Of a DNA stretch of 45,510 nt, positions 14,021 through 36,773 are shown one piece after another. Below the pieces are notes generated by a model. That model was given only the letters and a program-made list of their open reading frames with translations, did not search any database and was not told the origin of the DNA. The DNA lies in IMG/VR virus record IMGVR_UViG_3300017934_000064, positions 1-45,510 of that record, one strand, 5' to 3'. Source of the stretch: a virus. Position 1 is the stretch's first letter, and the number at the start of each line of letters is the position of its first letter. A program made the translations under genes and the position numbers.

Positions 14021-17000
14021 GTGGCTGATACCAAGTACCGAGCGTTCCCTTTCATCTTCGCCTCCAAGGGCCTGATCGCCCGTCATGCTCTTGATCGCCC
14101 GCCCAACGATTCTTTTTTCCTCAATATGCTCGGTTGTTACGAGCGTGCGGAAAATGCGGTCAGCACCCGCTATGGCTCCGTAATAATTAATAGGGACAGT
14201 CTCGGCGTGGGCGTCAGCAACTACCTGTTCACCGCCCCACCGGTCACGCTCGCCCGTCTCAAGAACTCATCCGGTACCTTCCGTTACGCTGGTCTCTCCG
14301 ACGGCTCGCTCTGGCGACGGGCAGGGGACACGCAAGGCCCTTACTCCAGCATCCTCGCTGCCACGGGTTCTCCTCCCGTCTATCCGCTCTCTGGTCAGCC
14401 CTTTTCCGCGCTGGTCAATACCTGCTTTGCCTCCGCCGCGCCGTGGCTGTTTATCTATGACCGCAAGGCCATGTATAAGGACAATGGCACGGGCACGCCC
14501 TCCCAAATCGGTATCTCGCCACCGGCTCGACCTGCGACTACCCAAGCCTACGCGCCTAGAATTCAGCTATTGGAAGTGTTCAGTAATTCCGCGGGCTATA
14601 CGGTCACCGGCGGGTTGACGGTTGCCGCGCTGGAGAATGCCTTCACTTCCGCGGGGATATCCGGTAGCTCTCAGTTAGGAGGTAACTACGAGCGCTATAC
14701 CGGTTCCGATGCAGGCGTACCCAATCATTGGTGGGAGCCCCTCAACGGTATGGTCGGCGCCAGTGTACAACTCCCTGATGGCGCTTGGCGCGTGAAGTTC
14801 GCAAGTTTTTTGACAGGTGTCGTAGCGGGCGCTCAGACGGGCACGTTTGACGTATTATCGCTCAACAATTCCTATGCTGCGGCAGACCATTTCCAGTTTC
14901 CCGACGTACGCACGACCGTTGCCTCCAACTCGATCGGTACCATCGGCAAGACCTTCGCTTCTCCGCTCGACCTTAGCGCCTATGAGACGGCTGACCTGTT
15001 CGTGCTGGCCGTCAAGGTGGCGTCCCCGGCGAATGTGCAGGAAATCCGCATCCAGTTCGATATCAACAACAGCGGCTACACCACCAGCTATTACACGAAG
15101 ATGCTCATCCCGGCCAGCTATCAGGCTTATCTGAACAATCCGCAGGTCAGCAGCAGCGTCGCCTCCTTGGCCAGTGCGCTATTCCAACAGGCGGTCATAG
15201 CGTCTGGCGACGTGGCAGTGGTACAGGGCGGGGTGGATACCAGCGCCAGTGGCGGCGCTGGGGGACTTGACCCGGCGCAACTCACGACCGGTCTGGGTTC
15301 ATGGTCGGTCATCTACATCCAGAAGGGCGACTTTCTACCCGTCGGTAACGCGGGCCAGACTGGTCTGGACTGGTCGGCGATTACGGGCTGGCAAATTCAG
15401 GTCACGACCACTACGGGCGGCTCCAGCGATGTATCCTTCAACTCGTTTTACGTACAGGGCGGCAGTGTCGCCGGGTCGCCGCCTGTGCCTGCCAGCGGGC
15501 CATCGAGTTTCGGCGGCGTCGGGTACGATCTGCGCTATACCTATTACAATGCCAACACCGGTACGGAATCCAACGCCTGTCCGCCGCAGGTGTTCTCCGT
15601 CACGCCGACCAATCCGGGCGGCACGTCCACGCTCATCGTATTGCGTCAGGCCATCAACGCCACTGGCCAATATTCAGCCGACCCGCAGGTCACGCACGTC
15701 CGCGTCTACGTCCGTGGCGGCTTGTTCGGTACCAACTGGTTTTACGCCGACCAGTTCGCCAACGTCACGGGTAGCGGCACATTCAGCTACAAATACACGC
15801 TGCCCGATACGGCACTGGAGCAGGGGAACGTCCTCAACTTGGCCAATGACGTACCCGTGACCTCGACACTGACCAATCCCATCACCACTTCTCTGACGCA
15901 AGCGCTTTCCCCTTCGCCTACCTATACGAACACGCCCTCCTTGGTGCATGTCATAGTGGCTGATGGGACTGCGGTGTTTGTGCCCTATCAGGTCGTTTTC
16001 ATCGGTACGCCAGACAACCTAGAAGAGGTTGTAGTCACCACTGGCGGTAATGCCAACTTTAATGCTTGGATTCAGGCTCCCCACAACGCTGGTGAACCCG
16101 TCTATTCCTACGCCAAGCCCGCACAACCCCTTTATCTTGCCGCTCAAGCCTATAGACAGACTTGGCTGGCAGGCGACCCGGCCAATCCCCACTATCTCTA
16201 CTACACTAATCCTGGGTATCCGGAGAACTGCGCGCCGCAGAACTACATTCCGGTAGGTACCGCCGCTAATCCGATTGTCATGGTGGTGAATACGCGCGGG
16301 GTGTTGTTTGTGTCTACGCTATCCAACACCTGGTATCAGATATTCCCCGGCACGCCGCCGTACGCGCAATCCACGGGTTCGGCGCACGGTGCCGCCGCCA
16401 GTTTCGGTTGGGCATTGGGCGAGAACGCCATCCTCTATCAGGCGTCGGACGGTATAAGAGAGTGGCACGGCACTGACGGCCCTTATCTTTCGCTCATCAT
16501 CGAGTGGCTGTACCGCATGAATCCGTTGACGCCGGTGACACTGGTCGACCTGACCAAACTGTCATCGGTGCTGGCGGCCTTCAAGAACAACACCGCCTAT
16601 TTCGTCTACACGGGCATCGACGGCAAGGCCCATCGACTGCTTTACCACACGCTCTATTGCGTACCGGAAGAGGCAGAAGCCCTGACTAGAGATGGGTGGA
16701 AGCGCCATAGCGAACTTTTGGAGGGAGAGGAGATACTAGCCTATGATGCTGAGTCCACGAGTTGTAAGTGGACGCCAACGGAGCGCATCAATGTATTTCC
16801 CTATGAGGGTGAAGTTTTTTCTTGGTCTGGCGGTAAAAATCGAAAGAAGTTCAACGTCGAGTGTACGCCTAGTCATACGTGGATTCATCGTTGCGATAAC
16901 CAGCGCGGTGGTAATCCAGAGCGTATGCGGCCAACTTACGAGATACACGCCTCGGGGGAAATACGACTGACTGCCCGTTTGGACGACGAGGAAAATCGCA

Positions 17001-18511
17001 GTCTATTAACCCCGAGAGAAGCTGCGATCTTGGGATGGTTAGTTACGGATGGCACTATTACCGTCAATTCGGGAGGAAAAAATCGTTCGAGCAGAATTTC
17101 TCAGAAACCTTTCGGCAAGTATGCAGATGAGATACGAGAACTGTTGGGTTCAGATTGCACCAGTGAGCATACCCGGGAGGTAGCGTGTCGGCTGAGGGCT
17201 AGAAAGATACCACCTAATCTTATAACGGTATTTCTGATTTCCACATCGTTCACCGAAGCGTTATTGCAAAAAGCCGGTTTCCGCGATCGCGGCGACCTAT
17301 GTCGCATCGCTGCCTCTCTTGATCGCAGTAGCGCATCCGCTATGCTCCGCGCCATGATGCAAGCTGACGGGCATAACGGCAGACAGATGACGTTCTTTAA
17401 TAATGACAAAAGAATAAGCGAAGCTGTACGCATTCTTGCCGCTTTGTGCGGCATGAGCACGTCGATTTATCCACACGGGGCGGAGGGTATGTACAACGTG
17501 TGTGTCAGTAAGCTGACGCACATTGATTGTGCGGCGATGGATCGTCGGGTCACTATACATAAGGGTCGTGTGTGGTGTCCGACGACACGCTACGGCACTT
17601 GGCTGATGCGCTATAAGGATACAGTTACTCTTACGGGTAACTCGCGCTGGCGCAATGACGACGTACAGGTTACGGCTCAACTTCTCGAAACCGACACCAA
17701 CACCCTCATCTACGCCAAGCCCATGACCATTGGCGGAGTCACGGGCTGGGCCGTCGTCTACGACTCGCTCACCCAGGACTATGACGATGGCGGCTGGGTA
17801 GGGGGCATGCTCGTCCAACTCCCCATCCCCATGACCTTGCAGACCCCATATCTCGACCAGGGGGCACCCAACAACCAGAAGCAGTACAACGTGCTGACCA
17901 TCGACGCCAATCCCAACGGGCAGACGATTACACCATTGCTGCTGTTCGACGATAACAACGGCAACGTCGCATCGGTCGCGCCATCGCCCGCTACCTTCAC
18001 CGGCAGTAATCGAGCCAAGTTTCAATTCCAAGTCAACGCCGGACAAGGCCAGCAAGCCTACCGGATATCGTTGCAGCTGTCGTCCTCGGTCGTGGCGGCC
18101 CCGGAAATCTACCAGGCCGATATCTACGCCGCCGTGCTGGCCGACGTGCGCTCCAGCTACGATACCTACCTCATCAAGGTCGCTGGCGACGAGTCCGGCA
18201 TTGTGAAGCAGGGATTTTTCGACTATACCTCTACCGCCGCCATCAATGTCGCCCTCTACGCCGACGGCAGCACCACTCCGTACTTTACGTTTACCCTCCC
18301 CCTCAACCCTACGCGAATGGAGGTGCCGATGCGCGTCCGCTTCAGCCGCAACGACGGCGCAATCGGCGTGCAGTCCATGCGCCTGTTCCGTTTGATAGCC
18401 ACCAGCACGGACACTTTCCAGTTGTGGCAACCTATCACCATTGAGGTAAAGCCTCTGCGTGGAGGCCCCAAAGGCTACACCAAGATGGTACTCGGAGATA
18501 CCGCGCCATGA
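14021..18511 (+). CDS. Very large tail-nozzle-like protein with an intein
   Basis: 1496 residues as encoded, starting with GTG at 14021 behind GGGAGGG at 14012-14018. Removing the intein (residues 880-1207) would give a 1168-residue product. The N-terminus resembles podovirus tail-hub or nozzle proteins: [12 protein letters not shown], then [20 protein letters not shown], where many such proteins carry a short RxG segment that anchors at the neck. The remaining extein is beta-rich with propeller-like and Ig-like parts. Residues about 623-697 match the shared beta module of the 11996 protein. The C-terminal extein after the intein continues with [13 protein letters not shown]. It would form the tail tube end next to the adaptor. 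No lysozyme or depolymerase motif was recognised. Confidence 0.6.
16658..17641 (+). mobile_element. Intein with LAGLIDADG homing endonuclease inside the nozzle-like gene
   Basis: A 328-residue in-frame insertion. The splice start is Cys880 ([14 protein letters not shown]), block A-like; block B is present as [11 protein letters not shown] with the catalytic Thr-x-x-His. Two LAGLIDADG helices are seen: [11 protein letters not shown] and [11 protein letters not shown], as in DOD-type homing endonucleases. The C-terminal blocks F and G read [13 protein letters not shown] and end TLTGN, with Asn1207 as last residue and Ser1208 as the first extein residue. The usual penultimate His is replaced by Gly, a known variation. 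After splicing the exteins join as HTLY-SRWR. It looks complete and probably active. Confidence 0.85.
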
Positions 18512-22093: not shown

Positions 22094-22552
22094 ATGAGCG
22101 AAACCGTGAAGGCCCTAGCGGTGGTCATCGCGTGGCCGACTTTGCTGTGGACGGGCGGCATGGCCCTGTTGCACGGTCGCTGCTTCGAGATGGACGCCCA
22201 TGCCCGTTACTCGTTCTACGCCATCCTCGCCCTCTATCGCCGCCTGTCCTTTACCCTATTCGGCGTCGGCGTACTGGTAGGCTTGGAGTCGGCCTATCTG
22301 CGGCTGGTCACCGTCACCATCGCTACGCTCTCTGCCGCCATCTACTCGCTGCTGTTTCAGGTTTGGCTGACTTGGTGCTACGAACTCTACCTGCACCAGC
22401 GCTATCGGGAAGGCCCGAGCGGCACGCTCGTCTCGCTGGTGAGTTCCTATACGGGATTTCAGTACGCCGTCACTCTGGCACTGGGGTTGTCGGCGCTCGT
22501 GCTGTTCATCGTCGGACTGGTCGGGTTTGCGTGGGCTTTGCTCACCAGATAG
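22094..22552 (+). CDS. Four-helix membrane protein (152 aa)
   Basis: GAGGAG at 22079-22084 before the ATG. Four hydrophobic stretches at about 7-25, 53-72, 72-92 and 120-148 (for example LALGLSALVLFIVGLVGFAWALL) mark a multi-pass inner-membrane protein with a Tyr-rich loop ARYSFYAILALYRR. It could be a holin-like or a membrane partner of the ACP/GNAT pair that follows 7 nt downstream. Holin assignment is only a possibility, since most holins have fewer residues and no lysis enzyme lies beside it. Confidence 0.55.
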   Translation: MSETVKALAVVIAWPTLLWTGGMALLHGRCFEMDAHARYSFYAILALYRRLSFTLFGVGVLVGLESAYLRLVTVTIATLSAAIYSLLFQVWLTWCYELYLHQRYREGPSGTLVSLVSSYTGFQYAVTLALGLSALVLFIVGLVGFAWALLTR

Positions 22553-22559: not shown

Positions 22560-22829
22560 ATGCCTGACACCACCGTTTATGACCGGGTCGCCGTGGTCAT
22601 CGCCGCCCGCGCCGGTATAGATACCTCCATGGTCACTCCGATGTCTAGCTTGGTTGATGATTTGGGTTTGGACTCGCTCGACCTGCTCCAATTGGGGCTG
22701 GAGTTGGAGTCCGAGTTCGGCCTGACCATTGGCGATGAAAGTTTATCGCGGCTGGAGACCGTCGGCGATATCGCGGCGTACATCACGTTGAGATCGGCGC
22801 CTGCGTCGACAGTGGAAGTACATCCGTGA
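22560..22829 (+). CDS. Acyl carrier protein
   Basis: 89 residues, ATG in a TGATATG context 7 nt after the membrane gene. The sequence has the ACP fold pattern: helix I RVAVVIAARAGI, the loop then LVDDLGLDSLDLLQLGLELE with Ser39 in the DSL motif, which is the phosphopantetheine attachment site, acidic helix II (recognition helix), and the final helix TVGDIAAYI. It is a little longer than typical 78-residue ACPs through a Ser/Thr/Val tail. It would carry an acyl group on the prosthetic arm, supplied by the host holo-ACP synthase. Its stop overlaps the GTG of the next gene (GTGA), so the two are probably translated together. Confidence 0.85.
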   Translation: MPDTTVYDRVAVVIAARAGIDTSMVTPMSSLVDDLGLDSLDLLQLGLELESEFGLTIGDESLSRLETVGDIAAYITLRSAPASTVEVHP

Positions 22830-23530
22830 TTACTGAGGCCCCGGACACCTCCGGCACTGCGGTTGACGTATTGCAGGCCCTTGCCGATGACGACTACCGC
22901 ATGGGCAACCTGCAGGCTATCCCCTACAATTCACTTCTTCGCAACGATGACCATCCGCTGTTCGAGGACAACTTCCTCTCCACGCTGTACGCCGATTCTA
23001 AAGCCGCTGGCATTCTCCCCCGCACCTTCTGCGGCATGACCAACCTCAGCCACGACGCCATTGTCTCCTACCTCGCCTCCAAGAAGGTCGTCGCACTGGT
23101 TGAGTGGGGCGAGAGGGACACGATAGCCGAGGGTACGTTCGTCATCGCCGGTTACGCCTTCGTCGTCGCTTGGGTCGGAGTGGCTCCTCCTGAACTCGGG
23201 CCGCGGTCGGCCTTCGCTGCCTACGCCTATCTGCCTGAGTATTGGGGCCTGCCCGCCGCCGAGACCCTCGGGATGCTCGGATTGGCCCACTTATTCCACG
23301 TCTATAAGTTGCAATCCATCTTCGGCCAGCGGTACGCTGATAACGCGCTCACCGCCCGTTTCATGGCCCGCTACGGCTCCCATGACATCGGGACTATACC
23401 CGGGTTCATCTTGGACAAGGGCGAGCGCGATGGCCAGCGCCGGTTGATCGACTGCGTGCTGTCGCGGCTGACGCGGGAAGATTTCGTCAGCTATGTAGAG
23501 CGGCGACTGCTAGCGATGATAGAGCGATAG
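22826..23530 (+). CDS. GNAT-like acyltransferase or gp13-type internal virion protein
   Basis: 234 residues from GTG 22826, overlapping the ACP stop by 4 nt. The second half has the order of a GNAT domain: strand TFVIAGYAFVVAWVGVA, a helical block PAAETLGMLGLAHLFH, strand KLQSIFGQRYADNALTARFMARYG and a C-terminal strand pair with GTIPGF. The canonical R/QxxGxG/A acetyl-CoA loop is not obvious, so it may use another donor or be non-catalytic. The place directly before three or more ejection-type proteins matches T7 gene 13, a GNAT-related protein needed for internal protein assembly. The coupling to an ACP, not present in T7, suggests acyl-ACP as partner (inference). Confidence 0.5.
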   Translation: MITEAPDTSGTAVDVLQALADDDYRMGNLQAIPYNSLLRNDDHPLFEDNFLSTLYADSKAAGILPRTFCGMTNLSHDAIVSYLASKKVVALVEWGERDTIAEGTFVIAGYAFVVAWVGVAPPELGPRSAFAAYAYLPEYWGLPAAETLGMLGLAHLFHVYKLQSIFGQRYADNALTARFMARYGSHDIGTIPGFILDKGERDGQRRLIDCVLSRLTREDFVSYVERRLLAMIER

Positions 23531-23569: not shown

Positions 23570-24175
23570 GTGGGCAACGGCGACGGCGGCAATATCGACC
23601 CCAAAGTCCAAGAGGGGATGCTTGCCAATCAGACGGCACTGACACAGATCGCCCAAGAGGTGGCCCAACGTGGTACGGATATTTACGACGTAACCGCTCC
23701 CGGTCTGGCCATCGCTGAGGGTAAGTATCAACGACTCTCCTCTGGTGACCCAGCGGCGATTGCTCAGGTACTCGCTCCCACTGCCGCCGCCGCCTCGGAA
23801 TCCGCTGCTGGGGCCAAGGCCAACATCCTTGCCAACGAACCCGCAGGAGGCGAGAAGAATCTGGCGCTGGAGGCCACCGATGCCGCCCGTGGCGCACAGA
23901 TAGCCAAGACCACATCGGCGGCTACCTTGGGCGCTCCGAATGCTCTCGGCGCATTGGCGGGCCAGGGCGCGGGTGAGTCCATCGCTGCGGCCGGTACGGG
24001 CATCAGCGGTTACAGTGCCGGAAGTCAAACGCTGCAAGGATTGGGCGGACTCCAATTGCAGTCGCAACAGATACAGGCCGAGGAGAAGGGCAACGTGTTG
24101 GGCTCTCTCTCCTCTCTAGCTGGCAGCGGCATGAACCTGTTCGGCACCTTGGCTACCGAAGGCGGTTGGGTCTAA
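23570..24175 (+). CDS. Ala-rich internal virion protein, T7 gp14-like in position and size
   Basis: 201 residues from GTG 23570 with GGAGG at 23558-23562. The composition is Ala, Gly, Gln and Ser-rich with long amphipathic helices and a Gly-rich C-terminus (LGSLSSLAGSGMNLFGTLAT), like small podovirus ejection proteins that go into the host outer membrane. No signal peptide. It lies between the GNAT-like gene and the two large internal proteins. The assignment is by context and composition; sequence identity to T7 gp14 is not claimed. Confidence 0.5.
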   Translation: MGNGDGGNIDPKVQEGMLANQTALTQIAQEVAQRGTDIYDVTAPGLAIAEGKYQRLSSGDPAAIAQVLAPTAAAASESAAGAKANILANEPAGGEKNLALEATDAARGAQIAKTTSAATLGAPNALGALAGQGAGESIAAAGTGISGYSAGSQTLQGLGGLQLQSQQIQAEEKGNVLGSLSSLAGSGMNLFGTLATEGGWV

Positions 24176-24177
24176 TC

Positions 24178-26163
24178 ATGCCTCAGCAGACAACGACTGC
24201 CGCCGCGACAACCGACACGCAGACCCCCCTCCCCTCGACTGCCTACGACCCCAATTCGTCCACGCCCTATACCCCTCCCCCTGTCGAGTTGCCGCCCGTC
24301 ACCGCCCCTCCACCCGCCGACCTCGCCTCTACATCCGCCCAGCGCAACGTCCGTCCCGTGTTCGGCACCGGAGGCAAGGCCGTCGCCGGTTCTATCGCCT
24401 ATCTCGGTGACTCCATCTTGCGCGGTTATATGCAGGGTCGTCAGCAGGCGCAGGCGGTGCAGGCCGACCGGGCGAACAAACTGGTGCAGGGTCTGCAACT
24501 GTCCTATCAGAATGACCGCAACAACTACCTCTCTCTACTCCAGACGGGCAAAGACCCGAACTCGAAAGAGGTAGTGGCGGCCAAGAACGCCGCCGACGCC
24601 AGCTACAAGGTGCTGATGACGATGTACTACAACGCCGTATTCGGCGGCACAAGTAAGGGCAGGAGTAAAGAGCGCGGGCATTTCACGGGGGCGGGCAAAG
24701 GCGGTGACGCAGGTGAGCAGCCCAACATCGCCGCCCTGCTCACGTCGAAGAACCCGCAGGAGAAGGCGCAGGGGATATTCTTGCTGACCCAGAAGGCAGG
24801 GGCACCGCACAACTACGACGCGCAGATGATACTGGCCCAGCGGCAGGCGCAGCAACAAGACCCTATGTTGCAGCACAAACAGCGCGTGGCCAGACTGGAA
24901 AACGATCTCAGTGTGCTCACGGCTTTGGGCGATAGGGCCACACCAGAACAGCAACAACAGAGAGAGGCCCTGCGGAAGCAACTGGAGCAGGAGAAGGAAA
25001 TATCGGTTCCCCTCCCCAAGCCGGTGGCTCCTAAGCCTCTTGCTGGCACCAAGCCTTACAAAGGCCCCGACGGTCGCTATTACCAGTCCATGCTGGTAGA
25101 CGGCATGGTCAGAGCCGAACCCATGCCGCCCGGGTACACGCCTCCCCCGGACAAGCAAAACCGTGACGACAAGTACATCGCCATCACGCAGAAACCGCCC
25201 GCGACGTGGACGGACGACGAGAAAGCCTACGTCGCCGCCTACGATACCTGGGTGCGCAAGACCAAAGTCGACCCCGGTGTGGCCCGCGCAGCGGCCTTCG
25301 GGGCTAACCGCTATATGCCGGTGCTCGACCCCAACGACCCCGAGAACGTCATTCTGATGCGGGTTGGCGACGCGGCGGCGGCGCACATTTCTACTCCGGC
25401 CTCCATCTCGTTCCAGATTGACAAGGCCATCTCGCGGGCCTTCACCAGCGGTCAACCGGCACAGACCATCAACTACTTCAACACCGCCGCCGCCCACATC
25501 AAATTGCTGGGCGAGACCGTCAAGGCCCTGCACAATAATGACGTGCAGGCGTTCAACAAGGCCGCCAATGCCGTCGCTACCGCCTTGGGTATGCCCGCGC
25601 CTACGGACTTCAATGCCGTGCGCAACGCCGTTGCCGGTGAGTTGTCCAAGACCTTTCGCGGCGCGGCGGCCACCGAAGAGGAAGTCCGGCTGGTCAACGA
25701 GACCATTAACAATGCGCAGTCGCCGGAGCAGCTTGCGCATGTCATTCACTATTATTCGACGCTGATGGGCAGCAAACTGGATGCGATGCGAGCGCAGTAT
25801 GAGGCCGGGAAGAGAGGAAAACCGGCGTTTCCAGAGCGGACAGAGCAAGCGCCGACGGAAGGCAAGACGCTGACGATGGCGCAGGTGGGGAAGGCCGCCA
25901 AAGACCACAATGTCAGCGTCGAGGCGGCGATTAAGCAGGCCGAGGGGCAGGGGTACACAGTGACCGGCAAGCCCGCTCAGGTCGCTGCGCCCGCTGCATC
26001 CAAGACCGTATCCGCTACCACTGCGCCGCCGTCATCCAAAGCTGCGACCGGTCGCAAAGTGCTAGACGAGGCCGCGGCGCAGAAGTTGCTGGATGAGGCC
26101 GGAGGCGACCCAGCGAAGGCCCGTCGGCGGGCGAAGGAACTCGGTTACGAGATACCCAAGTGA
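24178..26163 (+). CDS. Large internal virion (DNA-ejection) protein (661 aa)
   Basis: ATG 24178 follows the previous stop by two bases; an in-frame TTG at 24166 is an alternative. The first 60 residues are Pro/Thr-rich. Residues about 75-250 are helical, with Gln-rich and coiled-coil segments (ENDLSVLTALGDRATP, then EQQQQREALRKQLEQEKE). A central globular part follows, then an Ala/Thr-rich linker and a Lys/Arg/Glu C-terminus (EAAAQKLLDEAGGDPAKARR). This matches large podovirus internal proteins like T7 gp15 in size and character. No catalytic motif seen. Confidence 0.55.
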   Translation: MPQQTTTAAATTDTQTPLPSTAYDPNSSTPYTPPPVELPPVTAPPPADLASTSAQRNVRPVFGTGGKAVAGSIAYLGDSILRGYMQGRQQAQAVQADRANKLVQGLQLSYQNDRNNYLSLLQTGKDPNSKEVVAAKNAADASYKVLMTMYYNAVFGGTSKGRSKERGHFTGAGKGGDAGEQPNIAALLTSKNPQEKAQGIFLLTQKAGAPHNYDAQMILAQRQAQQQDPMLQHKQRVARLENDLSVLTALGDRATPEQQQQREALRKQLEQEKEISVPLPKPVAPKPLAGTKPYKGPDGRYYQSMLVDGMVRAEPMPPGYTPPPDKQNRDDKYIAITQKPPATWTDDEKAYVAAYDTWVRKTKVDPGVARAAAFGANRYMPVLDPNDPENVILMRVGDAAAAHISTPASISFQIDKAISRAFTSGQPAQTINYFNTAAAHIKLLGETVKALHNNDVQAFNKAANAVATALGMPAPTDFNAVRNAVAGELSKTFRGAAATEEEVRLVNETINNAQSPEQLAHVIHYYSTLMGSKLDAMRAQYEAGKRGKPAFPERTEQAPTEGKTLTMAQVGKAAKDHNVSVEAAIKQAEGQGYTVTGKPAQVAAPAASKTVSATTAPPSSKAATGRKVLDEAAAQKLLDEAGGDPAKARRRAKELGYEIPK

Positions 26164-26182
26164 TACAGGTGAGCCCTGACCA

Positions 26183-27571
26183 ATGCCAGATATCTTCGAC
26201 CGCCTCGCGGAGAAGTTCACCTTTGAGTCCGGTCGTCGCGGCGGAAAGCGTCATGGTCATGGACGCGGCACGGGCAGAGGTGACCTCTATGATGCCGACT
26301 ACGGTTTCGTTGACCCCGCCACTGGCGTACCGCTAGAGCCGAAATATACCGGTAATCCCTTCGACCCCTTTCCCGCTGGACAAGACCCCAGACCATCATC
26401 CGGTTTTGACGTGCAGCCTTCACGAGAACGTGATAACGCGACTGCGTACCTGACGGAAATATTGGACGTTCTGTACCGTCGCAGTCGGCCTTTGTCGGAG
26501 GAAGAGAAACGCGGCATGGGCGGACTCTTCAACGAGCAGATGCTGGAGAGCCTGAAGGTCTACCCCAGCAAGGTAAATGACGCCCTAGCCTACGCCTACG
26601 CTCTCCGTCCTTGGAGCATCCACGTCCAAGAGGGTATTCCTCATCCTGCTCCCAGCACGCTCGCCCATGAGACCGCGCATCTGGAGCAGTTCCGCCATCC
26701 TAGTCTGTCCAGCGGTACTCGCCTCAATCCGGCCACGTTAAAAAGGGAAAGGGCTGGCCCTCGCCTTAACCCGGACAACTACGATTACGGCGGCGTGGAG
26801 GGCTTGACCAGAGCGCAAAAGGCGGGGCGGCGGTTTGCCGATTTCGGCATCGAGCAGCAAGCCACTATCGTAGAAGATTTTCTCGACGAGGTGGATAGAA
26901 ACCGAGACCTGCGCAACAGGATATTGAGGGGGGAGAAGGCCAGCATTGGCGACTATAAGCACGCACTGGATGCTTCCAGTCAGAATATCCGCGTCTACGC
27001 ACCCTTCATCCATGAGTTCCAGCAGGCCACGGGGATGTTGGGCGGGCAACCAGAGAGTGGTGTAGCGGATTATGTTCGTAGTCTCGCAAAACAGGCCAGT
27101 GTGGCTAGTACGGAGAAGCCGCTACCGCCAAAGAGCAAAGGTCATGATATTTTTGACCGCCTCGCTGCCAAGCTCAAGTCGACCAACGGTAAGCCTGCTG
27201 GCGATAGCGGCGATATCTTTGACGCCCTAGCTAATCGGATTAGTCCCAGCAACACTGACCTTTACAATCGACCTCATGTCAAGGTCGACAACAAAACCGC
27301 TACCGTGCGCTCTATCGGTATCGGCACCGATCGCGGTTATGTCGTGATACCGACTGTGGCCGAAGACGGCAGCCGCATCTTGTCCAACGATGAGGCTATT
27401 GAGCAGTGGAAGCACACCGGCAAGCATCTCGGCATCTTCAAAAATCAGACGGCTGGCGATGCCTATGCTCGTCAGTTACATTGGGACTATGAGGCGGGCA
27501 AGTATGACAAAAGGCCTGCAACTCCAGCACCGGATATTTTTGACCGTCTGACTCGACAGCGACAGCAGTGA
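26183..27571 (+). CDS. Virion-associated HExxH metallopeptidase-like protein
   Basis: 462 residues. His162-Glu-Thr-Ala-His166 (LAHETAHLEQF) is a zincin active-site motif; a candidate third ligand downstream was not identified. Residues about 355-445 form a domain often seen in phage virion proteins: TVRSIGIG, then GYVVIPTV, NDEAIEQWKHTGKHLG and DAYARQLH. The peptide DIFDxL occurs four times: residue 3 (start), 322, 344 and 451 (end), and is spaced by flexible stretches. The motif may dock the protein on a partner. It lies between two large internal proteins, so it may be injected and cut a host protein or remodel virion proteins. Confidence 0.6.
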   Translation: MPDIFDRLAEKFTFESGRRGGKRHGHGRGTGRGDLYDADYGFVDPATGVPLEPKYTGNPFDPFPAGQDPRPSSGFDVQPSRERDNATAYLTEILDVLYRRSRPLSEEEKRGMGGLFNEQMLESLKVYPSKVNDALAYAYALRPWSIHVQEGIPHPAPSTLAHETAHLEQFRHPSLSSGTRLNPATLKRERAGPRLNPDNYDYGGVEGLTRAQKAGRRFADFGIEQQATIVEDFLDEVDRNRDLRNRILRGEKASIGDYKHALDASSQNIRVYAPFIHEFQQATGMLGGQPESGVADYVRSLAKQASVASTEKPLPPKSKGHDIFDRLAAKLKSTNGKPAGDSGDIFDALANRISPSNTDLYNRPHVKVDNKTATVRSIGIGTDRGYVVIPTVAEDGSRILSNDEAIEQWKHTGKHLGIFKNQTAGDAYARQLHWDYEAGKYDKRPATPAPDIFDRLTRQRQQ

Positions 27572-27623
27572 GTAAAACGTGATTCCCTACCCTATTCCGT
27601 TGTAGAGTGAACGTAGCATCGTT

Positions 27624-30053
27624 ATGGCCAACGGTACTGACAGCGCGACCGGTCAGCAGATCGACTTCAGCAAATACGCGGACGCCACCACGCCGCCGAC
27701 TTCGATCTCCAAGCGTGCCCAGCACCGCCAACAGAAGTCCAAGGAGACCGCACCAGTCATTGATTTCAGCCGGTACGCAGAACCGTCACCGCCGCCGAGC
27801 TCTACCGCCGCGACCTCCCCTTCCGCGTCGGATGACCGTACGGGCTGGACTTACGGTAGCACCGGCTTTGAATCCTACCAACCTGCGCCCGTTACCCAAG
27901 GACTGGTCTCACCCGAGGACGCTGCTCGTTTGGCCAGCCGCGTCCAGAGCGGTCGCAGTATCGGCGCGTGGCGCGACGACCTCAACCGGGCCTATCGCGA
28001 AATCTCCTCCATCGCCGCCAAGCCAGTCACACCCAGCTACACCGCTGAGCAACACGCCCGCGATATGGAATCGCAGATCGCCCGGGTGCACCAGATCGCG
28101 CAGGTCATCGGGCAGGATGAAACTATGGGACGCATTATCTCCGGCGCCTCTTCGCCCGCTGGGTTGGGCATGTTCCTGTTGTCATTCATCAACCGACCGG
28201 CAGCGGCTATCACAGGCTTGGGTATGTCGGCTTCCCAACTCGGCTCGCGTCAGCCCCACGAATCCTCGGCGGACTACCTCGAACGTGTACTGCTGGGGCT
28301 GTCCGGGGTAGCGGGTTCGGCGGCGCTGGGAGCGTCATGGGCCAAGGATGTCATACCCACGACGGAAACCCTGCGCGTGAAGTTTCAGGAGACCCTCGGG
28401 GCCGGGCCGAGGGTAACTGGCCAGATTGCGGAGCGGCTGGAGAAAGCGCAGGCAGTGCACGCCGGCAAAGTGCGCGAGGTCATCCGCCGCTACGCCGACG
28501 ATGTCGCCAAGCACGAAAAGCAGGAGGCCCAGCTACAGGTCAAGCACGAGGCTGAAATCGAGGAACTGGAAAAGCGATACGCCGACGACGTGACCAAGCG
28601 CGACGCCGAGATCACCAAGAACCAAGCCGCTTACGAAAAGAAACTGGCTGCGGCGCAGAAGGCAGGCCGCGACCTCGCCCGTCGCAAGGCCATCACCCAA
28701 CTGCAGGACGCCCACGCCCGCGCCATCGTAGACAACGTCAAAGAGGTGTACAGGTCGGTCAAGGAGGCGCTGGATGCTCGCTGGGAGGCCAATCGCAAGA
28801 CCGTCGGCAACGATTATCCGATAAAGGGGCTTGGCGCGATTCAAACCGCCATTGAAGAGGGCCGTGCGAAACTAGCGGGCGTACCCGACAGCCTCAAAAT
28901 CCTCGACCAGATCGAGAGCCGAGTTACGCAGGAGAAAGAGTTCATCGACTCCACCACCGGCAAAGATCGTCTCCAGCGTGTACCCAAAGACGAGATTCCC
29001 TACTCGGACGCCCGCCGTCAATTTCACGAAATTGGCAGACAGGCATTTGCCGTTCCCGACCGCACCACCCGCGCCGTTCTATTCAGCATCCGCGACGCCT
29101 ACGATACGCTGCTCACCGGGGTCAACAAAGCGGTAGACAAGGCGCACGGATTGCCCCCCGAGCAACAAGGCGCAGCCTACGCGAGGCTGAAAAGCGACTG
29201 GCACCAGTTCGAGCAGGACTGGAACGATACCAGCAGCATGCGTACCGCCGGGGGCCACGAAGACCCGCTGCGCGCCATCCCAGGAAGCCCCTTGGCCCAA
29301 CTGGTGCGCATGTCTGCCGACGCACCACAACCAGTACTGCAACTCGTCACAGGGCCTTACGGGGAACGTCTCCTTAGCACGCTCACTCGCTATAAGCCGG
29401 AGGGGGCCAATGTGACCCTGCCGTCCGAGATGCGTGCGCTTGCCGTCGAGGGTAAGGAGTTGCCGCGCGTCAAGCCCGAAGCTACTGTCGAGCCACCGCA
29501 ACCGGAAACTCCGTCGCCCGTGGCTCGTCCCGTGGCACCTCCGCGCAAGACTCCCGCCGAAGCGCCGAAACTGGAGTTGCCCGAGGACGTTGAGGTACCC
29601 AACATCAGCAAGGAAAAACAGGCTCTCATCCGCGACCGCCTTGCCACTTTGAAAATGTTGCGCCCTTGGGACTGGATTATCGTTACCGGCGGGCCGCTGC
29701 TTTACATTCTGGGACACCGCATGATTGGCACTGCCGGGATAGCCTCACTAGGCGTCGAGAAGGCGCTGATTGGCTGGATGGATGAACCCAGATTCATCGA
29801 GTGGCTGGCGGGGAACAGCGAACGCGATTTGACGGCCATGAGCCATTTGCCTGAGGATGTACAGGCGCCGTTAAGGGAACAGATCAATCAGTACATCAAC
29901 GAGAAAGCGGCGGCGGGCAAAAAGCCGCAGGTAACGAAGCCGCTGATGCAGTGGCTGGCGAGGGGCACGGCGACCACTGGGGCGACGGCAAAGGGGAAAG
30001 AGAAGCCGACGCCGGAAGCGCTGCCGATGCCAGCGGCGATGATTGCCCCCTGA
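27624..30053 (+). CDS. Very large internal virion / DNA-ejection protein (809 aa)
   Basis: ATG 27624 with only weak ribosome-binding context. IDFSKYA occurs at residues 13-19 and IDFSRYA at 46-52, within a Pro/Ser-rich N-terminal tail, so another short motif is repeated. A membrane-like segment lies near 175-215. Residues about 240-400 form a long charged coiled coil (Glu/Lys/Ala-rich, e.g. EKQEAQLQVKHEAEIEELEK). A second hydrophobic segment WDWIIVTGGPLLYILGH is found near 680. The protein ends in a Pro/Ala/Thr-rich tail. Size, coiled coil and membrane segments resemble ejection proteins such as T7 gp16, but no lytic transglycosylase motif was recognised. Confidence 0.55.
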   Translation: MANGTDSATGQQIDFSKYADATTPPTSISKRAQHRQQKSKETAPVIDFSRYAEPSPPPSSTAATSPSASDDRTGWTYGSTGFESYQPAPVTQGLVSPEDAARLASRVQSGRSIGAWRDDLNRAYREISSIAAKPVTPSYTAEQHARDMESQIARVHQIAQVIGQDETMGRIISGASSPAGLGMFLLSFINRPAAAITGLGMSASQLGSRQPHESSADYLERVLLGLSGVAGSAALGASWAKDVIPTTETLRVKFQETLGAGPRVTGQIAERLEKAQAVHAGKVREVIRRYADDVAKHEKQEAQLQVKHEAEIEELEKRYADDVTKRDAEITKNQAAYEKKLAAAQKAGRDLARRKAITQLQDAHARAIVDNVKEVYRSVKEALDARWEANRKTVGNDYPIKGLGAIQTAIEEGRAKLAGVPDSLKILDQIESRVTQEKEFIDSTTGKDRLQRVPKDEIPYSDARRQFHEIGRQAFAVPDRTTRAVLFSIRDAYDTLLTGVNKAVDKAHGLPPEQQGAAYARLKSDWHQFEQDWNDTSSMRTAGGHEDPLRAIPGSPLAQLVRMSADAPQPVLQLVTGPYGERLLSTLTRYKPEGANVTLPSEMRALAVEGKELPRVKPEATVEPPQPETPSPVARPVAPPRKTPAEAPKLELPEDVEVPNISKEKQALIRDRLATLKMLRPWDWIIVTGGPLLYILGHRMIGTAGIASLGVEKALIGWMDEPRFIEWLAGNSERDLTAMSHLPEDVQAPLREQINQYINEKAAAGKKPQVTKPLMQWLARGTATTGATAKGKEKPTPEALPMPAAMIAP

Positions 30054-30198: not shown

Positions 30199-30924
30199 AT
30201 GGCGAACGCATTGCAAGTTAGCGTAATCATGCCCGTCCGGGGCCGACGCAGTCTGGTCGCCGCCGCCTTACGCAGTTACTGCCAGCAAACTTGGGATTGC
30301 CGGGAAATCGTGATCGTCGACGACTCCGACCCCGAGGATGACCTCTCCGATTTGTTCAGCAATATCCCCAACGTGGTCTATATCGTCCCCTATATCAAAC
30401 TAGGCGACGAGCGCTTGAGCATAGGCAGTAAGAGAAATCTGGGCATCGAAGCCTCCCATGGGGACATCGTCACCGTTTGGGATAGCGACGATATCTTCGC
30501 GCCGGAGCGCATAACGCAGCAAGTCTATACCTTGCTGAAAACGGAGCGCATGCTGACGGGCTATTTCGCCATGAGCTTGTTCGATCTGACCAATTTCAAA
30601 GCGCACAGGTATTTCCTAAACCGACAGTATGCGTGCGGGGCCTCCATGAGTTTTCAAAAACAGTGGTGGAGAGACCATCCGTATCCAGACCAAGATATCG
30701 GGGAGGATTTGGACTACGCGACCGGGCATCCCGCTGAATTGGCGGCGACCGATGGCACCAGCATGATGGTCTGTCTGCTCCATGACTCCAACGTGAGCAG
30801 CCGCGACCAGGTCGCCCGCCATCCCTGCCAGTTCCCCGAGATCCCGCTCGCCCGATTGCCGGACTATTGTTTTAGATATCTCAACGAGGCCGGGATAGTA
30901 TACAATCCATCCGCAGTTTGTTGA
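30199..30924 (+). CDS. GT2-family glycosyltransferase
   Basis: 241 residues. GT-A fold signature: VSVIMPVRGRRSLVAAAL, EIVIVDDSD, GSKRNLGIEASHGDIVTVWDSDD with a DSDD (DxD-type, Mn-binding of the sugar nucleotide) motif, and ED at about 173 (GEDLDYA) as candidate catalytic base. It would transfer a sugar from a nucleotide donor to a glycan. It is the first gene of the glycan locus that follows the virion genes. No membrane helix is visible, so it is probably cytoplasmic. Confidence 0.85.
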   Translation: MANALQVSVIMPVRGRRSLVAAALRSYCQQTWDCREIVIVDDSDPEDDLSDLFSNIPNVVYIVPYIKLGDERLSIGSKRNLGIEASHGDIVTVWDSDDIFAPERITQQVYTLLKTERMLTGYFAMSLFDLTNFKAHRYFLNRQYACGASMSFQKQWWRDHPYPDQDIGEDLDYATGHPAELAATDGTSMMVCLLHDSNVSSRDQVARHPCQFPEIPLARLPDYCFRYLNEAGIVYNPSAVC

Positions 30925-30949
30925 TATTCGGAAGGAGCCTGCTAAACTT

Positions 30950-31618
30950 GTGACGAAGAGTCTGCACCTATCCTCTTTTGAACGAGGTAGGAGAACGTCA
31001 GAGGGTAGGAGACTGGCACGTATCGCTCGGGGGTGGACGGAACCCCCGCCCGGTATGAAAGTGTGCAGCAAGTGCAAAATCTGCAAGTCCATAAGCGATT
31101 TTGGTGCAGACAGGAATCGCCCAGACGGCCTGAAATATAACTGCAAAGAGTGCACCCGTGTCTACAACAGACAGCATTATCCGAACTACCGCGATAAGAA
31201 TTTAGAATGGATACGGCTGCATCCAGAGAAAACAGCTGAATACCGTAAGCGCTACATGGCAAAACGTGGAGTGTGGAAGAAAATGCAAGATCGCAATGGT
31301 CGCCTATGGAGCGATTATGGGATGACGCGGGAAGACTACGATATGCTATTGACTCTCCAAGAGGCTCGATGTGCTATCTGCGGGAACCTCTCGAAGAGTA
31401 CTCTACACGTGGATCACGATGCGACCACTGGCGGCGTTAGAGGGCTGCTGTGCGGTAGCTGCAATCGGGGTATAGGGATGTTCAAGCACTCTTCCGCTAC
31501 TGTACGAAAGGCAATGGAGTACCTCAATGAGAATACTGGTGACGGGAAGCAATGGCGTTTTAGGCAGAGCGCTTGTAGCAGAACTGCGAAACAGGAACCA
31601 CGAGGTTTGGGGATGTGA
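30950..31618 (+). CDS. Endonuclease VII-type homing endonuclease
   Basis: 222 residues from GTG 30950, with AAGGAG at about 30932-30937. The first half has a zinc module (CSKCKICKS, then CKECTRVYN). The second half is the Endo VII/HNH core: YGMTREDYDMLL, ARCAICG, LHVDHDATTGGVRGLLC and CGSCNRGIGMF. T4-type Endo VII enzymes cut branched DNA, whereas relatives such as this one occur as mobile genes. Its C-terminal 30 residues are read from the start of the next gene in another frame (overlap 92 nt), so the natural C-terminus appears to have been lost on insertion. Confidence 0.8.
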   Translation: MTKSLHLSSFERGRRTSEGRRLARIARGWTEPPPGMKVCSKCKICKSISDFGADRNRPDGLKYNCKECTRVYNRQHYPNYRDKNLEWIRLHPEKTAEYRKRYMAKRGVWKKMQDRNGRLWSDYGMTREDYDMLLTLQEARCAICGNLSKSTLHVDHDATTGGVRGLLCGSCNRGIGMFKHSSATVRKAMEYLNENTGDGKQWRFRQSACSRTAKQEPRGLGM

Positions 31619-32498
31619 CCTGTTCCACTGTGATGACGCGTACTATATACGTGCGGATATCTCTGACGCGCAACAATTAGATAGAGCGTTTTCTATAGCA
31701 TCACCCGCGTTGACTTATGGCCTAGCTGCGGAATTTGGTCGTCTTAACGGTGAAGCGTATCCTCGACAGCTGTGGACTAGTAATTGCCTAGGGCTATCCA
31801 ACACCATTGATCTCTGTCTTAAATATGCGTCTCGGCTGGTATTTGCCTCGTCAAGTGAAGCATACGGTGACCTAGCCGACCGTCACGACATCCTGCGCGA
31901 AGGCCTGCTGCGCGACGAGGTGCCCAACTTTCACTGCGAATACGCGCTCAGCAAGCTCGTGGGCGAACATCAACTCCAAATTGCGCGAACCAACAGTGGT
32001 CTGAAGGCGGTGGCGCTGAGATTTTTCAATTGCTATGGCATGGAGCCCTACACGCCGTACAGGTCAGTCGTCTGCAACTTTATCTACCGCCTGCTCCACC
32101 GTCTGCCTATCACCGTCTACGCCCAGTGCCACCGCGACTTCCTCTACATCAGCGACTGGGCTCGCACAGTGGCCAACGTCGCCGACCGCTTCGACCAACT
32201 CCGCGAATCGGCCTACAACATCGGCGGCAACGACTACCGCTCTATCCGAGTGTTAGCGCAACTGGTGCTCAAGGCCTGCGGTTACGACCCCGGTCATGGC
32301 TCCTGGGACGGCCTCGTGGAGATGAAGGACGTGGAGCCCGCCAATATCCAGAACAAGCGGCCGGACATTGCGCTGGCCGTCCGCGACCTCGACCACGCGC
32401 CACGGGTGAGGTTGGAAGAGGGCGTCGAGTTGACGGTCGCGTGGATGCGGAAACGCTACGGCCTGCAAGATGGCCTGCAAGATGGCCCACAAGGTTGA
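31527..32498 (+). CDS. NAD-dependent sugar epimerase/dehydratase (extended SDR)
   Basis: 323 residues. N-terminal Rossmann motif MRILVTGSNGVLG (GxxGxxG), catalytic YALSK (YxxxK), and a preceding FASSSEAYGD strand with the conserved Ser. Such enzymes change nucleotide sugars, for example 4-epimerisation or 4,6-dehydration. The exact reaction cannot be read from the motifs. The C-terminus ends in a tandem repeat LQDGLQDGPQG encoded by a duplicated GCCTGCAAGATG. The start overlaps the Endo VII gene by 92 nt, with a GGAG inside that gene as ribosome-binding site. It would supply a modified sugar for the neighbouring transferases. Confidence 0.8.
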   Translation: MRILVTGSNGVLGRALVAELRNRNHEVWGCDLFHCDDAYYIRADISDAQQLDRAFSIASPALTYGLAAEFGRLNGEAYPRQLWTSNCLGLSNTIDLCLKYASRLVFASSSEAYGDLADRHDILREGLLRDEVPNFHCEYALSKLVGEHQLQIARTNSGLKAVALRFFNCYGMEPYTPYRSVVCNFIYRLLHRLPITVYAQCHRDFLYISDWARTVANVADRFDQLRESAYNIGGNDYRSIRVLAQLVLKACGYDPGHGSWDGLVEMKDVEPANIQNKRPDIALAVRDLDHAPRVRLEEGVELTVAWMRKRYGLQDGLQDGPQG

Positions 32499-32505
32499 TA
32501 CCTGC

Positions 32506-33201
32506 ATGTCTGCCAATCCACCTCTCCCGCTTGAATTCAGCCGCTATAACCAACTCGGTCTCTCGGGGTTCACCCACGTGGCTATCACCGCCGCGCTGGA
32601 ATACACCTGCGGCCGTGTGGGCGGCGACTACTACGAGTTCGGCCTCTATGCGGGCTCCAGTTTCTACCATGCCCAGCAGGAAGCCCGCCGTCTTGACCTA
32701 TCCGCGATGAACTTCTGGGGCTTCGACTCTTTCCAGGGTCTGCCCGCAGTCACCGCCAAGCCGGACATCGGCCGCTTCGTCCCCGGCCTGTACACCTGTT
32801 CACTGGAGACCGTGCGGCTACTCCACAACTGTTTCGGCGTGGACTGGCGGCGCACACACCTCATCAAGGGTTGGTACGAGGACACGCTGAACGCTACGCT
32901 GGTCAAGGAACGCGGTATGGCCCCGGCAGCGGTAGTGGTCGTGGATTGCGATCTATACACGTCCACGGTGCCAGTGCTCCGGTTCATCGCGCCCTTGCTA
33001 CAACCGCGAACGGTCATCATCTTTGACGACTGGCATCAGGGCGGCGAGCAGCAGGCATTTCGGGAGTGGCTGCCAAGGTATCCGCAGTGGGGGGCGAAAG
33101 AGTATCGGGTGAAGGACATGGACTATCATCAGAAGATGTTCATCATGTACGAGGCCGAGGCGGGGGCGGAGGTGCGGTCGAGGAATGCAAGAACTCTATG
33201 A
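32506..33201 (+). CDS. TylF-like class I methyltransferase
   Basis: 231 residues from ATG 32506 (alternatives at 32470 and 32482 lie within the previous gene's repeat). SAM-binding strand YYEFGLYAGSSF; WGFDSFQGLP resembles the region after motif II in TylF/MycF macrocin O-methyltransferases, while VVVDCDLYTST and TVIIFDDWHQGG match the metal/catalytic stretches of that family. It probably O-methylates a sugar. It lies between the SDR and an HNH enzyme whose ATG overlaps its stop (ATGA). Confidence 0.75.
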   Translation: MSANPPLPLEFSRYNQLGLSGFTHVAITAALEYTCGRVGGDYYEFGLYAGSSFYHAQQEARRLDLSAMNFWGFDSFQGLPAVTAKPDIGRFVPGLYTCSLETVRLLHNCFGVDWRRTHLIKGWYEDTLNATLVKERGMAPAAVVVVDCDLYTSTVPVLRFIAPLLQPRTVIIFDDWHQGGEQQAFREWLPRYPQWGAKEYRVKDMDYHQKMFIMYEAEAGAEVRSRNARTL

Positions 33202-33881
33202 AAAAACATCGGTCGGGTGATTGTCAGTGCGGCTGTGGCAAGAAAACGACCCTTGCCAAGGAAACTCGGCGCGGTGCTGTCGCCGGGGAGCCTAATAGGT
33301 TCATTCGCGGCCACAGTTCTTGTCACCCTCGTGGGACTAGCCGAATGGTCGTCATCGACGGTGCTCGCTATAAAACCGTTCCCCTAACTCAGGATAAAGA
33401 GGCTATCGTAAGCGCCATTGATTACGTCTGGATATCGCGTCATCGATATAGCGCCTACAATCATAACGGCACGTGGTACGCACATCGCAGCGTGACGCAG
33501 TCAAACGGAAAACGGAAAGCTATTGGTATGCATGTGGAAATTCTTGAGCGCATGTTGGGGGTGAGAACCAATCACCATCAACAAGCGGATCACGCAAACG
33601 GGGATGGATTAGATAATCGACGTTGCAATCTCAGAATTTCAACCCCTAGTCAGAGTTGTGCGAATCGGCCTAAATTCAAGGAAAGTACCCCCTTTAAAGG
33701 GGTATCCATCTCCCGGCGCAGATACAGGGCGTCTATCGTTCATATGGGAACGAGGCACTACCTCGGGTCGTTTGAATCCTCGATACAGGCTGCGCACGCT
33801 TACGACGAAGCCGCACGCTCATTCTTTGGCAAATTTGCCTGCGTAAATTTCCCCCGTAAGGGAGAGCGTGGATGCCTCTAG
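33198..33881 (+). CDS. HNH-AP2 homing endonuclease
   Basis: 227 residues. ATG 33198 overlaps the methyltransferase stop (ATGA). The N-terminus has a Cys module (DCQCGCGKKT) shared with the enzyme at 38951. The centre has HNH features (MHVEILERML, then ADHANGDGLDNRRCNLRI). The C-terminus is an AP2 DNA-binding domain (FKGVSISRRRYRASIV, YLGSFESSIQAAHAYDEAA). It is a close relative of the minus-strand enzyme at 13147 but has another N-terminal zinc module. Its end overlaps the next gene by 10 nt. Confidence 0.85.
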   Translation: MKKHRSGDCQCGCGKKTTLAKETRRGAVAGEPNRFIRGHSSCHPRGTSRMVVIDGARYKTVPLTQDKEAIVSAIDYVWISRHRYSAYNHNGTWYAHRSVTQSNGKRKAIGMHVEILERMLGVRTNHHQQADHANGDGLDNRRCNLRISTPSQSCANRPKFKESTPFKGVSISRRRYRASIVHMGTRHYLGSFESSIQAAHAYDEAARSFFGKFACVNFPRKGERGCL

Positions 33882-35236
33882 CGGAACGCCAAGTTTATCC
33901 TTTAGATCATGCGACCCATCTGCCGATTCTTATCGGTCTCGGACTCAAAATTTCTATCATCCGCGTTCTCGAATTGGGCGCAGGTTCGTACTCCACGCCC
34001 CTGTTCGTTAACCGTGACGTATTCCCTGATCTAGTTGAGCTAGTGTCTGTCGAACATGATCCAGAGTGGAGAGAACGCATCCGTGGAGGTGAGGGTAATG
34101 GCCGCATCGTGCTTACGGATACCCCTCCGACCGACCGTTCCCGGTTCCATCTGATTTTCGTTGATAGTGCCGATGCTGCCTCCCGTACTGCAATCCTACG
34201 ACTGCTACGTGAATCCGAGTCTCAACCTGCTCTAATTGTTGTTCACGATTCTGAGAACGAGTGGTACCACGAAGAAATCGAGAAGTTCCCTAAGCGTCAT
34301 CACTTCGTTGCTTTTAATCCAGAAACGAGTGTGATCTGGCGAGCCGATGACCGAGAACCGGAAATTTATAAAGCGATCATGGAAATTGACGCAATTACGC
34401 GGCTTCATGCCAATGATCGGCCCGATGATATAGCTAAGTGGATTGAACTGTTCCGAGCGGGAGTGTCGCCCGCGCCCCCATCGCATCCGCTTACCGTTTC
34501 TGTCGATATGGTGACATACCGACGGGTGCCGCAGATGCGAAATACGCTCGAAACGTATCTCATTCAGACCCGCAAGCCTGATGAGTTGATCGTGGTCGAG
34601 GATGGCTATGACGGCGGGGAGACTGAGAGCCTTTGCAAAGAATTTTCTGATCGGCTACCGATCAAATACGTTTGCCGCCGCAACCGTCCGGACGTTCCAT
34701 TCTCTAACGCCGCGATTCCCCGCAATATCGGCATCCGGCAGGCCACAGGCGATATCATTGTCCTTCACAACTCCGAAGTACGCTTCACCAAGCCGACCGA
34801 TTTTGCCAACATTGTCGGGCCTACTGAGGCTGACCCGATGATTTGTACATGTGCACCGTGCGAAGCGCTTAACCCGGATGGTTCCCACAAACAGTGGTAT
34901 TGCGATCCCCACCTCTGGAATTTTTCCCACTTCTGCGCGGCCTACCGGAGAAAGGCGATTGTTGAGGAATTAGGCGGGTTTGACGAAGCGTATCGCCGAT
35001 ATGGCTGGGAAGACATGTCTTTCAATATGCGAGCGAATCGCGCCGGTATTGTCAGCATATGGGCTAAGGACGTTGTAACTCAGCATCAATGGCATGAAGT
35101 GAGGTCGAGTCCGCAGGATAGAGAAGCGCAGGAATTTAATATCAGATACAGCACTCAAGAAATGGAAGATATCTTGAGCGGACGGCGGACGCTGGAGGCC
35201 AACCTCGGTAAGCCATGGGGAGATCTGTCGTCCTGA
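33872..35236 (+). CDS. Fused methyltransferase-like and GT2 glycosyltransferase
   Basis: 454 residues. The first 150 have a SAM-methyltransferase-like Rossmann pattern: IIRVLELGAGSYSTPLF (motif I), ELVSVEHD (acidic end of motif II) and HLIFVDSA. A charged linker is followed at about 209-430 by a GT2 domain: VSVDMVTYRRVPQ, ELIVVEDGYDG, PRNIGIRQATGDIIVLHNSE and a galactosyltransferase-type end GGFDEAYRRYGWEDMSFNMR. The fusion links methylation to sugar transfer, as in some O-antigen and capsule enzymes. The HNN motif replaces the usual DxD in the GT part, so metal use is uncertain. Confidence 0.75.
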   Translation: MPLAERQVYPLDHATHLPILIGLGLKISIIRVLELGAGSYSTPLFVNRDVFPDLVELVSVEHDPEWRERIRGGEGNGRIVLTDTPPTDRSRFHLIFVDSADAASRTAILRLLRESESQPALIVVHDSENEWYHEEIEKFPKRHHFVAFNPETSVIWRADDREPEIYKAIMEIDAITRLHANDRPDDIAKWIELFRAGVSPAPPSHPLTVSVDMVTYRRVPQMRNTLETYLIQTRKPDELIVVEDGYDGGETESLCKEFSDRLPIKYVCRRNRPDVPFSNAAIPRNIGIRQATGDIIVLHNSEVRFTKPTDFANIVGPTEADPMICTCAPCEALNPDGSHKQWYCDPHLWNFSHFCAAYRRKAIVEELGGFDEAYRRYGWEDMSFNMRANRAGIVSIWAKDVVTQHQWHEVRSSPQDREAQEFNIRYSTQEMEDILSGRRTLEANLGKPWGDLSS

Positions 35237-35255
35237 AAGTGATAAGATATCTGGT

Positions 35256-35882
35256 ATGGGGTTGTCCTATCCTAAACCGCTGCCAAACACTGATAACTTA
35301 GTTGAACTGCGTACATGCCGATTGTGCGGTGTTGAAAAATTGCTAGCTAAATTTGTCGGCGTCACTAGGGGGCGACGTTCGCAGATATGCAGTAAGTGTC
35401 ATTCCCGTCGAGTCAATGAGAGGGCTAGAAGTAAAGACCTCAGCCCTGAACAGTTGGAAAAAAGACGTGTGAAATGGAGAGAGTATGACGAAAAGCGCCG
35501 TGAGATAAAAAGAGAACAAGCAAGACAACGACAGCGGGAGAAGAAAAAGGAATACTTGTCAAGTTGGTATCAGCGCAATAAGAATCCTAACGTAGCGCGT
35601 GCAAAACTTAAACAACTGAAGGCAGAAGTGCTTGCGGCTTATGGAGGGAAGTGCTATTGCTGCGGCGAGACTGAGATCAACTTTCTTACTCTGGATCATC
35701 CCAAAAACGACGGGGCTACCCATCGGATTGCGAACGGCGGTAATCCTTTCTATAAGTGGCTTCAAAGGAATGGCTATCCTAAAGGGGTAGTAAGGGTGGC
35801 GTGCTGGAACTGTAACTGCGGAAGACACGTAAACGGAGGCATTTGCCCCCACAAAACTAAAAGGAAAAGCCCAAACCCGTGA
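35256..35882 (+). CDS. Zinc-binding HNH-type homing endonuclease
   Basis: 208 residues. The first 50 have a zinc module (CRLCGVEK, CSKCHSRR). A highly charged Arg/Lys/Glu helix (about 60-105) follows. The second half is an HNH core: YGGKCYCCGETEINFLTLDHPKNDGATHR, here described by its key residues C-x2-C, LTLDH and HR, then a CWNCNCGRH module. By eye it is AT-richer than the glycan genes, as for other mobile enzymes here. The stop overlaps the next GTG (GTGA). An AGATATCT lies at 35245-35252, just before its ATG. Confidence 0.75.
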   Translation: MGLSYPKPLPNTDNLVELRTCRLCGVEKLLAKFVGVTRGRRSQICSKCHSRRVNERARSKDLSPEQLEKRRVKWREYDEKRREIKREQARQRQREKKKEYLSSWYQRNKNPNVARAKLKQLKAEVLAAYGGKCYCCGETEINFLTLDHPKNDGATHRIANGGNPFYKWLQRNGYPKGVVRVACWNCNCGRHVNGGICPHKTKRKSPNP

Positions 35883-36754: not shown

Positions 36755-36773
36755 CCGCCGACGTAATCTTCCA

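Follow-up and report, generated by a model that had tools for sequence, protein, structure and literature searches.

A phage acyl carrier protein gene linked to a GNAT-fold gene at the T7 gp13 position, ahead of putative ejection-protein genes

Why would a phage place an acyl carrier protein (ACP) gene beside a gene for a GNAT-fold protein, immediately ahead of genes that probably encode ejection proteins? We found this arrangement in a 45.5-kb virus record, whose full length of 45,510 nucleotides is referred to here as the window, and in which the two genes are followed by four long open reading frames (ORFs) reaching to position 30053. On the plus strand, a small membrane protein gene (22094-22552) precedes the ACP gene (22560-22829; 89 amino acids) and the GNAT-fold gene (22826-23530; 234 amino acids). 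Next come a gp14-like putative ejection protein (23570-24175; 201 amino acids), a putative second ejection protein (24166-26163; an ORF of 665 amino acids) and two further putative ejection-operon proteins of 462 and 809 amino acids (26183-27571 and 27624-30053). The gp14-like gene starts with GTG and encodes the N-terminus M-G-N; an alignment of seven homologues gave identities of 33-63%. The order and position of the second ORF are common to four relatives (L002, L004, L007 and L009). Searches of Pfam and PHROG with the four long ORFs 3' of the GNAT gene (23570-30053) returned no significant family match; the assignment to ejection is based on their position after the tail genes and on resemblance. 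To that extent the earlier note was right to describe four ejection-type virion genes, although family matches to back the description are absent from both databases. The third of these ORFs contains a HETAH sequence (HExxH) at 26666-26680, possibly marking a zinc peptidase or lytic domain carried on an ejection protein.

The ACP gene runs from an ATG at 22560 to a stop codon at 22827-22829. Its product matched the Pfam PP-binding domain (PF00550; E 1.5e-12, with 48 bits passing the curated cut-off of 20.8) and the PHROG acyl carrier protein family phrog_5934 (7.8e-12), and its nearest solved structures were the ACPs of type II fatty-acid synthesis, with E values down to 3.9e-17. The phosphopantetheine serine lies in the motif D38-S39-L40 (Ser39 codon at 22674-22676), and the Asp-Ser pair was invariant across the ten phage ACPs aligned. 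The protein thus resembles type II ACP (AcpP; PF00550) in domain, DSL serine, length and acidic helix II, but it is encoded by a phage in a late operon, and no fatty-acid synthesis gene was found adjoining it. Judged by its sequence, it is a genuine AcpP-type ACP with the features of one that is modified. Two claims of the earlier note, that the window holds a full ACP with a DSL serine at position 39 and that this gene overlaps a GNAT-like gene by GTGA, were therefore borne out, the stop codon at 22827-22829 overlapping the start at 22826. The overlap was seen only in the window and two relatives (L004 and L030) and is not conserved: elsewhere the two genes were separated by a 36-base gap (L036) or by 368-569 bases that included other ORFs (L002, L007 and L019).

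The adjoining gene starts with GTG at 22826 and ends with a stop codon at 23528-23530. Its product, searched alone, had no match in Pfam or PHROG; neither did tblastn searches of 50,697 phage records with the GNAT and ACP sequences, or a search of viral contigs with the single GNAT sequence, yield any match. We reached relatives by way of the long tail ORF and next with alignments built from GNAT and gp14-like proteins, which gave a homologue set of 23 diverse GNAT sequences, the window's own included. An AlphaFold2 model built from these 23 sequences had a pLDDT of 90.6 and a pTM of 0.87 and showed the full GNAT order of strands and helices; an earlier model from four sequences (pLDDT 63.6) was set aside in its favour. 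Foldseek returned 380 PDB matches to the model at E<=1e-3, and the 50 of these that were listed were GNAT-fold entries of the RimJ, SpeG and PseH kinds, the best (1e-8) being RimJ-like N-acetyltransferases. The phage protein resembles RimJ/RimL/SpeG-type acetyltransferases in its complete fold (best among the matches listed 1e-8) and, for the most part, in motif B; by contrast, identity to them is only about 10-19%, and the loop W(G/R)x(P/E)x stands in place of RxxGxG/A. As far as prediction can settle the matter, the second protein has a GNAT fold, as the earlier note had supposed. Long C-terminal extensions, absent from the window protein, were present on three GNAT homologues (L022, 4660-5934; L031, 3839-5053; L026, 4961-5914).

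In all 22 loci that held a gp14-like gene, the GNAT gene lay 5' of it, on the same strand and no more than 1.1 kb away. The GNAT gene is therefore a core gene of these podovirus-like phages, where it follows the tail genes, precedes the gp14-like gene and so corresponds in place to T7 gp13. The slot is the same in T7, where gp13 (PF11090, internal virion protein A or probable scaffold) is encoded between the tail nozzle gene and gp14, and gp13-like proteins of T7-like phages, including one named "host specificity protein A", appeared among the weak structural matches of the GNAT model. However, the GNAT protein has 234 amino acids against 138 for T7 gp13, and no ACP is found among the annotated genes adjoining gp13 in T7. 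Sequence comparison gave an hhalign E value of 0.33 over 44 columns and no match to PF11090. The analogy with T7 gp13 that had been drawn from the window alone thus covers gene order and general fold and does not extend to sequence.

An ACP gene lay just 5' of the GNAT gene in seven loci (the window, L002, L004, L007, L019, L030 and L036). In a tree of the GNAT and gp14-like proteins, exactly these seven formed one clade (support 100/99), so that a single change of state accounts for the arrangement. GNAT identity within the clade ranged from 30 to 58%, and the ACP gene stayed in place even where an HNH gene (L002) or other ORFs (L007 and L019) lay between it and the GNAT gene. The simplest reading is that an ACP gene was placed 5' of the GNAT gene once, in the ancestor of the clade, and was kept by every descendant seen. 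ACP and GNAT identities across the clade were correlated (Mantel r 0.60, exact p 0.008), which is what joint inheritance of the two genes should produce. The ACP tree was poorly resolved and did not group the clade ACPs as one; because this tree is too weak, a single origin of the clade ACPs is unproven. A final expansion search for the clade added no new members.

What might the pair do? The reading that we tentatively favour is that an ACP made late and charged by the host assists the gp13-like GNAT in the modification of an ejection protein, the chemistry and the substrate being those that we infer. On this proposal the ACP would be made late in infection, host holo-ACP synthase would put phosphopantetheine on Ser39, and host fatty-acid synthesis would charge the phage ACP. 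The ACP would then act together with the GNAT while the ejection proteins assemble, either donating the acyl group or serving as a partner that bears it. The likeliest target would be the co-expressed gp14-like protein, with its conserved start-Gly N-terminus exposed after removal of Met. GNATs of phages outside the clade would rely on a donor from the host or need none.

Nearly as probable is a second reading, in which the ACP would be an independent auxiliary gene acting on host acyl metabolism, through lipid synthesis or ACP-dependent host proteins; it would have inserted among existing neighbours in the late operon, and its adjacency to the GNAT gene would be coincidental and kept by vertical descent. 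Five relatives carry an ACP away from the GNAT gene, right behind a DnaB-like helicase in three (L021, L022 and L026) and in other regions in two (L009 and L010), as such a reading would have it; an ACP can thus serve these phages away from the GNAT. None of the records carried an ACP at both places, and 11 of the 23, several of them fragments, had none; three records of more than 90 kb (those of L011, L033 and L035) also had none. An ACP therefore seems generally profitable to these phages, and it is in the window's clade that it seems to be tied to the GNAT. The slot also takes insertions (the HNH gene in L002; other ORFs in L007, L019 and L021), and phage ACPs have been described as auxiliary metabolic genes (PMC8224337, PMC11705849). 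Those so called in Alteromonas R22Y, Erythrobacter R6L and Rhodobacteraceae prophages are likewise single ACP genes; in R6L, the sole one of these with its neighbour checked, the ACP adjoins a RusA nuclease gene and not GNAT or ejection genes. That neighbour had been considered as a hidden GNAT and was rejected, and the neighbour of the ACP in a Manatee Spring phage matched no family. In another clade of relatives, the ACP gene was found right behind a DnaB-like replicative helicase gene and 5' of an integrase-like gene (L041, 5092-5346; L042, 4961-5197; L043, reverse complement, 5847-6095).

More widely, 48 viral loci held similar ACPs, in many contexts, and GNAT and ejection-gene neighbours occurred only in this clade, in an unrelated lineage represented by L076 and possibly in L068. 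In L076 the order was gp10-like, ACP, GNAT, gp14-like and gp15-like, the names being given by position and resemblance. The L076 GNAT is supported through its relatives, of which 14 of 14 scanned matched Pfam Acetyltransf_1 (E<=0.1, best 1e-12). Among the 79 loci of the L076 lineage, 21 had a GNAT of the L076 type, and only L076 itself had an ACP. We did not accept L068 as a third case: there an overlapping 156-amino-acid ORF and an ACP gene precede a gp14-like gene, but the ORF matched nothing in Pfam and nothing convincingly in the PDB. The recurrence in the same slot is suggestive, being a single secure independent case that came to light post hoc.

These occurrences weigh against an isolated cargo gene, a view under which the earlier note's pairing would have no conserved basis. 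The ACP-GNAT-gp14-like order, which that note had proposed looking for in other phages, has persisted in seven of seven clade members despite deep divergence (30-58% GNAT identity) and a turnover of neighbouring genes, and it recurs in the second, unrelated lineage; moreover, a site in a late operon is odd for a gene that changes host metabolism. The linkage exceeds in age and stability what chance cargo would show, yet the GNAT does not need the ACP. The original interpretation of the pair is partly supported: structure and linkage speak for it, and the asymmetry of the pairing, with the GNAT in every locus whether an ACP is there or not, speaks against it.

Does the GNAT itself look like an enzyme that takes acyl groups from an ACP? 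Motif A, the pyrophosphate loop R/QxxGxG/A that holds CoA, was degenerate in all 23 GNATs (YWGLPAA in the window), whereas Asn173 of motif B was present in 22 of the 23. By sequence, the degenerate CoA loop fits an acyl-ACP donor and equally fits a loss of activity, and it is common to the members that have no ACP. The Phe of a "GF" motif (position 185) was kept in 16 of 16 GNATs outside the ACP clade and lost in six of the seven inside it; since the seven form a single clade, the loss may be neutral and shared by descent. The 23-sequence alignment showed no Lys or Arg specific to the GNATs of the ACP clade, and hence no ACP-specific basic patch, and no invariant His of the kind found in HlyC. 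Precedents for an acyl-ACP donor do exist: HlyC uses acyl-ACP, and the related ApxIC adopts a GNAT fold in which the CoA-contacting elements are missing (PMC8339906), while the LuxI-type acyl-HSL synthases are GNATs that use acyl-ACP (PMC4234381). These RtxC acyltransferases (HlyC and ApxIC) and LuxI thus draw acyl groups from acyl-ACP with GNAT-fold enzymes, and the phage protein, which has no RxxGxG/A loop, is comparable to ApxIC in this respect. However, the phage GNATs have neither the catalytic His of RtxC enzymes nor a conserved basic ACP-docking patch like that of LuxI in the sequence alignment, and the locus offers no AHL or toxin context.

An unlikely alternative is that the GNAT has no catalytic role and serves in assembly or as a scaffold, in keeping with the role annotated for T7 gp13, and that the ACP, with or without an acyl arm, stabilises the GNAT or an ejection protein as a structural partner. 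ACPs do act as structural partners in other complexes. The degenerate loop in 23 of 23 GNATs would suit a scaffold, Pfam labels T7 gp13 (PF11090) a probable scaffold protein, and T7 gp13 is reported to be needed for infection, its location being unknown (PMC8811829). Conservation of motif B (N173 and the next helix) and of the whole GNAT fold is not obviously needed by a scaffold, and no homology to gp13 was detected by sequence.

If instead the pair acylates an ejection protein, as in the reading we favour, the gp13 position would gain an enzymatic role. The role and location of T7 gp13 are unsettled, and the same slot here holds a full GNAT fold and, in one clade, an ACP of its own. Phage ACPs would also gain a concrete job beyond "auxiliary metabolism", and phages would be seen to lipidate the proteins that build their DNA channel. 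In at least 18 of the 22 loci (20 when two ACG starts are counted), Gly followed the start codon of the gp14-like gene, and this Gly was conserved both with and without an ACP; in T7-like gp14 proteins, the N-terminus was Met-Cys in five of five compared. Since the start-Gly is conserved and RimJ, a protein N-terminal acetyltransferase, is among the nearest folds, acylation of the gp14-like N-terminus is one form that the modification might take. Specifically, the GNAT would N-acylate the N-terminal Gly from its private ACP and so aid entry into the host membrane, a phage counterpart of the myristoylation of virion proteins in eukaryotic viruses; we consider this version very improbable. In two distant phages, L002 (17924-17926) and L027 (5983-5985), ACG replaces ATG or GTG ahead of the GK with which gp14-like proteins conservedly begin, and the ACG in L027 has a good ribosome-binding site, so that ACG start codons are possible.

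The membrane protein encoded 5' of the ACP gene at 22094-22552 has about four hydrophobic stretches (a by-eye reading) and keeps FExD and YExYLHxRY motifs. It had been suggested as a possible partner of the pair, but it is not an obligate one: homologues lay 5' of the GNAT gene in 14 of 23 loci and were not found in two ACP-bearing loci (L007 and L030). The correlation between ACP and membrane protein was not significant once the tree was considered. A search of bacterial genomes for prophages gave one locus (L044), on a contig of a Verrucomicrobia assembly, which held the membrane protein, GNAT and gp14-like genes but no ACP. The membrane protein has thus neighboured the GNAT for longer, and more widely, than the ACP has.

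That the ACP donates acyl groups for phage glycan modification, with the GNAT as a sugar acyltransferase, is very improbable: a large glycan cluster does lie 3' of the operon (30199-43674), and the structural matches include the sugar GNATs PseH and FdhC, but in all loci the GNAT is conserved as a neighbour of gp14 and not of glycan genes. This region takes up almost one-third of the record and encodes glycosyltransferases, sugar epimerases (Epimerase and UDP-GlcNAc 2-epimerase) and methyltransferases (TylF, FkbM and class I).

Mobile endonuclease genes of the HNH/endonuclease VII-like kind were found in the window (2650-3330, 30950-31618 and 33066-33881) and in L002 (16549-17253). The long tail protein (ORF 14021-18511), whose L002 homologue is about 300 amino acids shorter, contains a probable intein at about 16650-17730 (residues ~878-1237). 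The putative intein region matched sequences inside unrelated phage proteins, namely terminase, portal, DNA polymerase, methylase and tape measure proteins.
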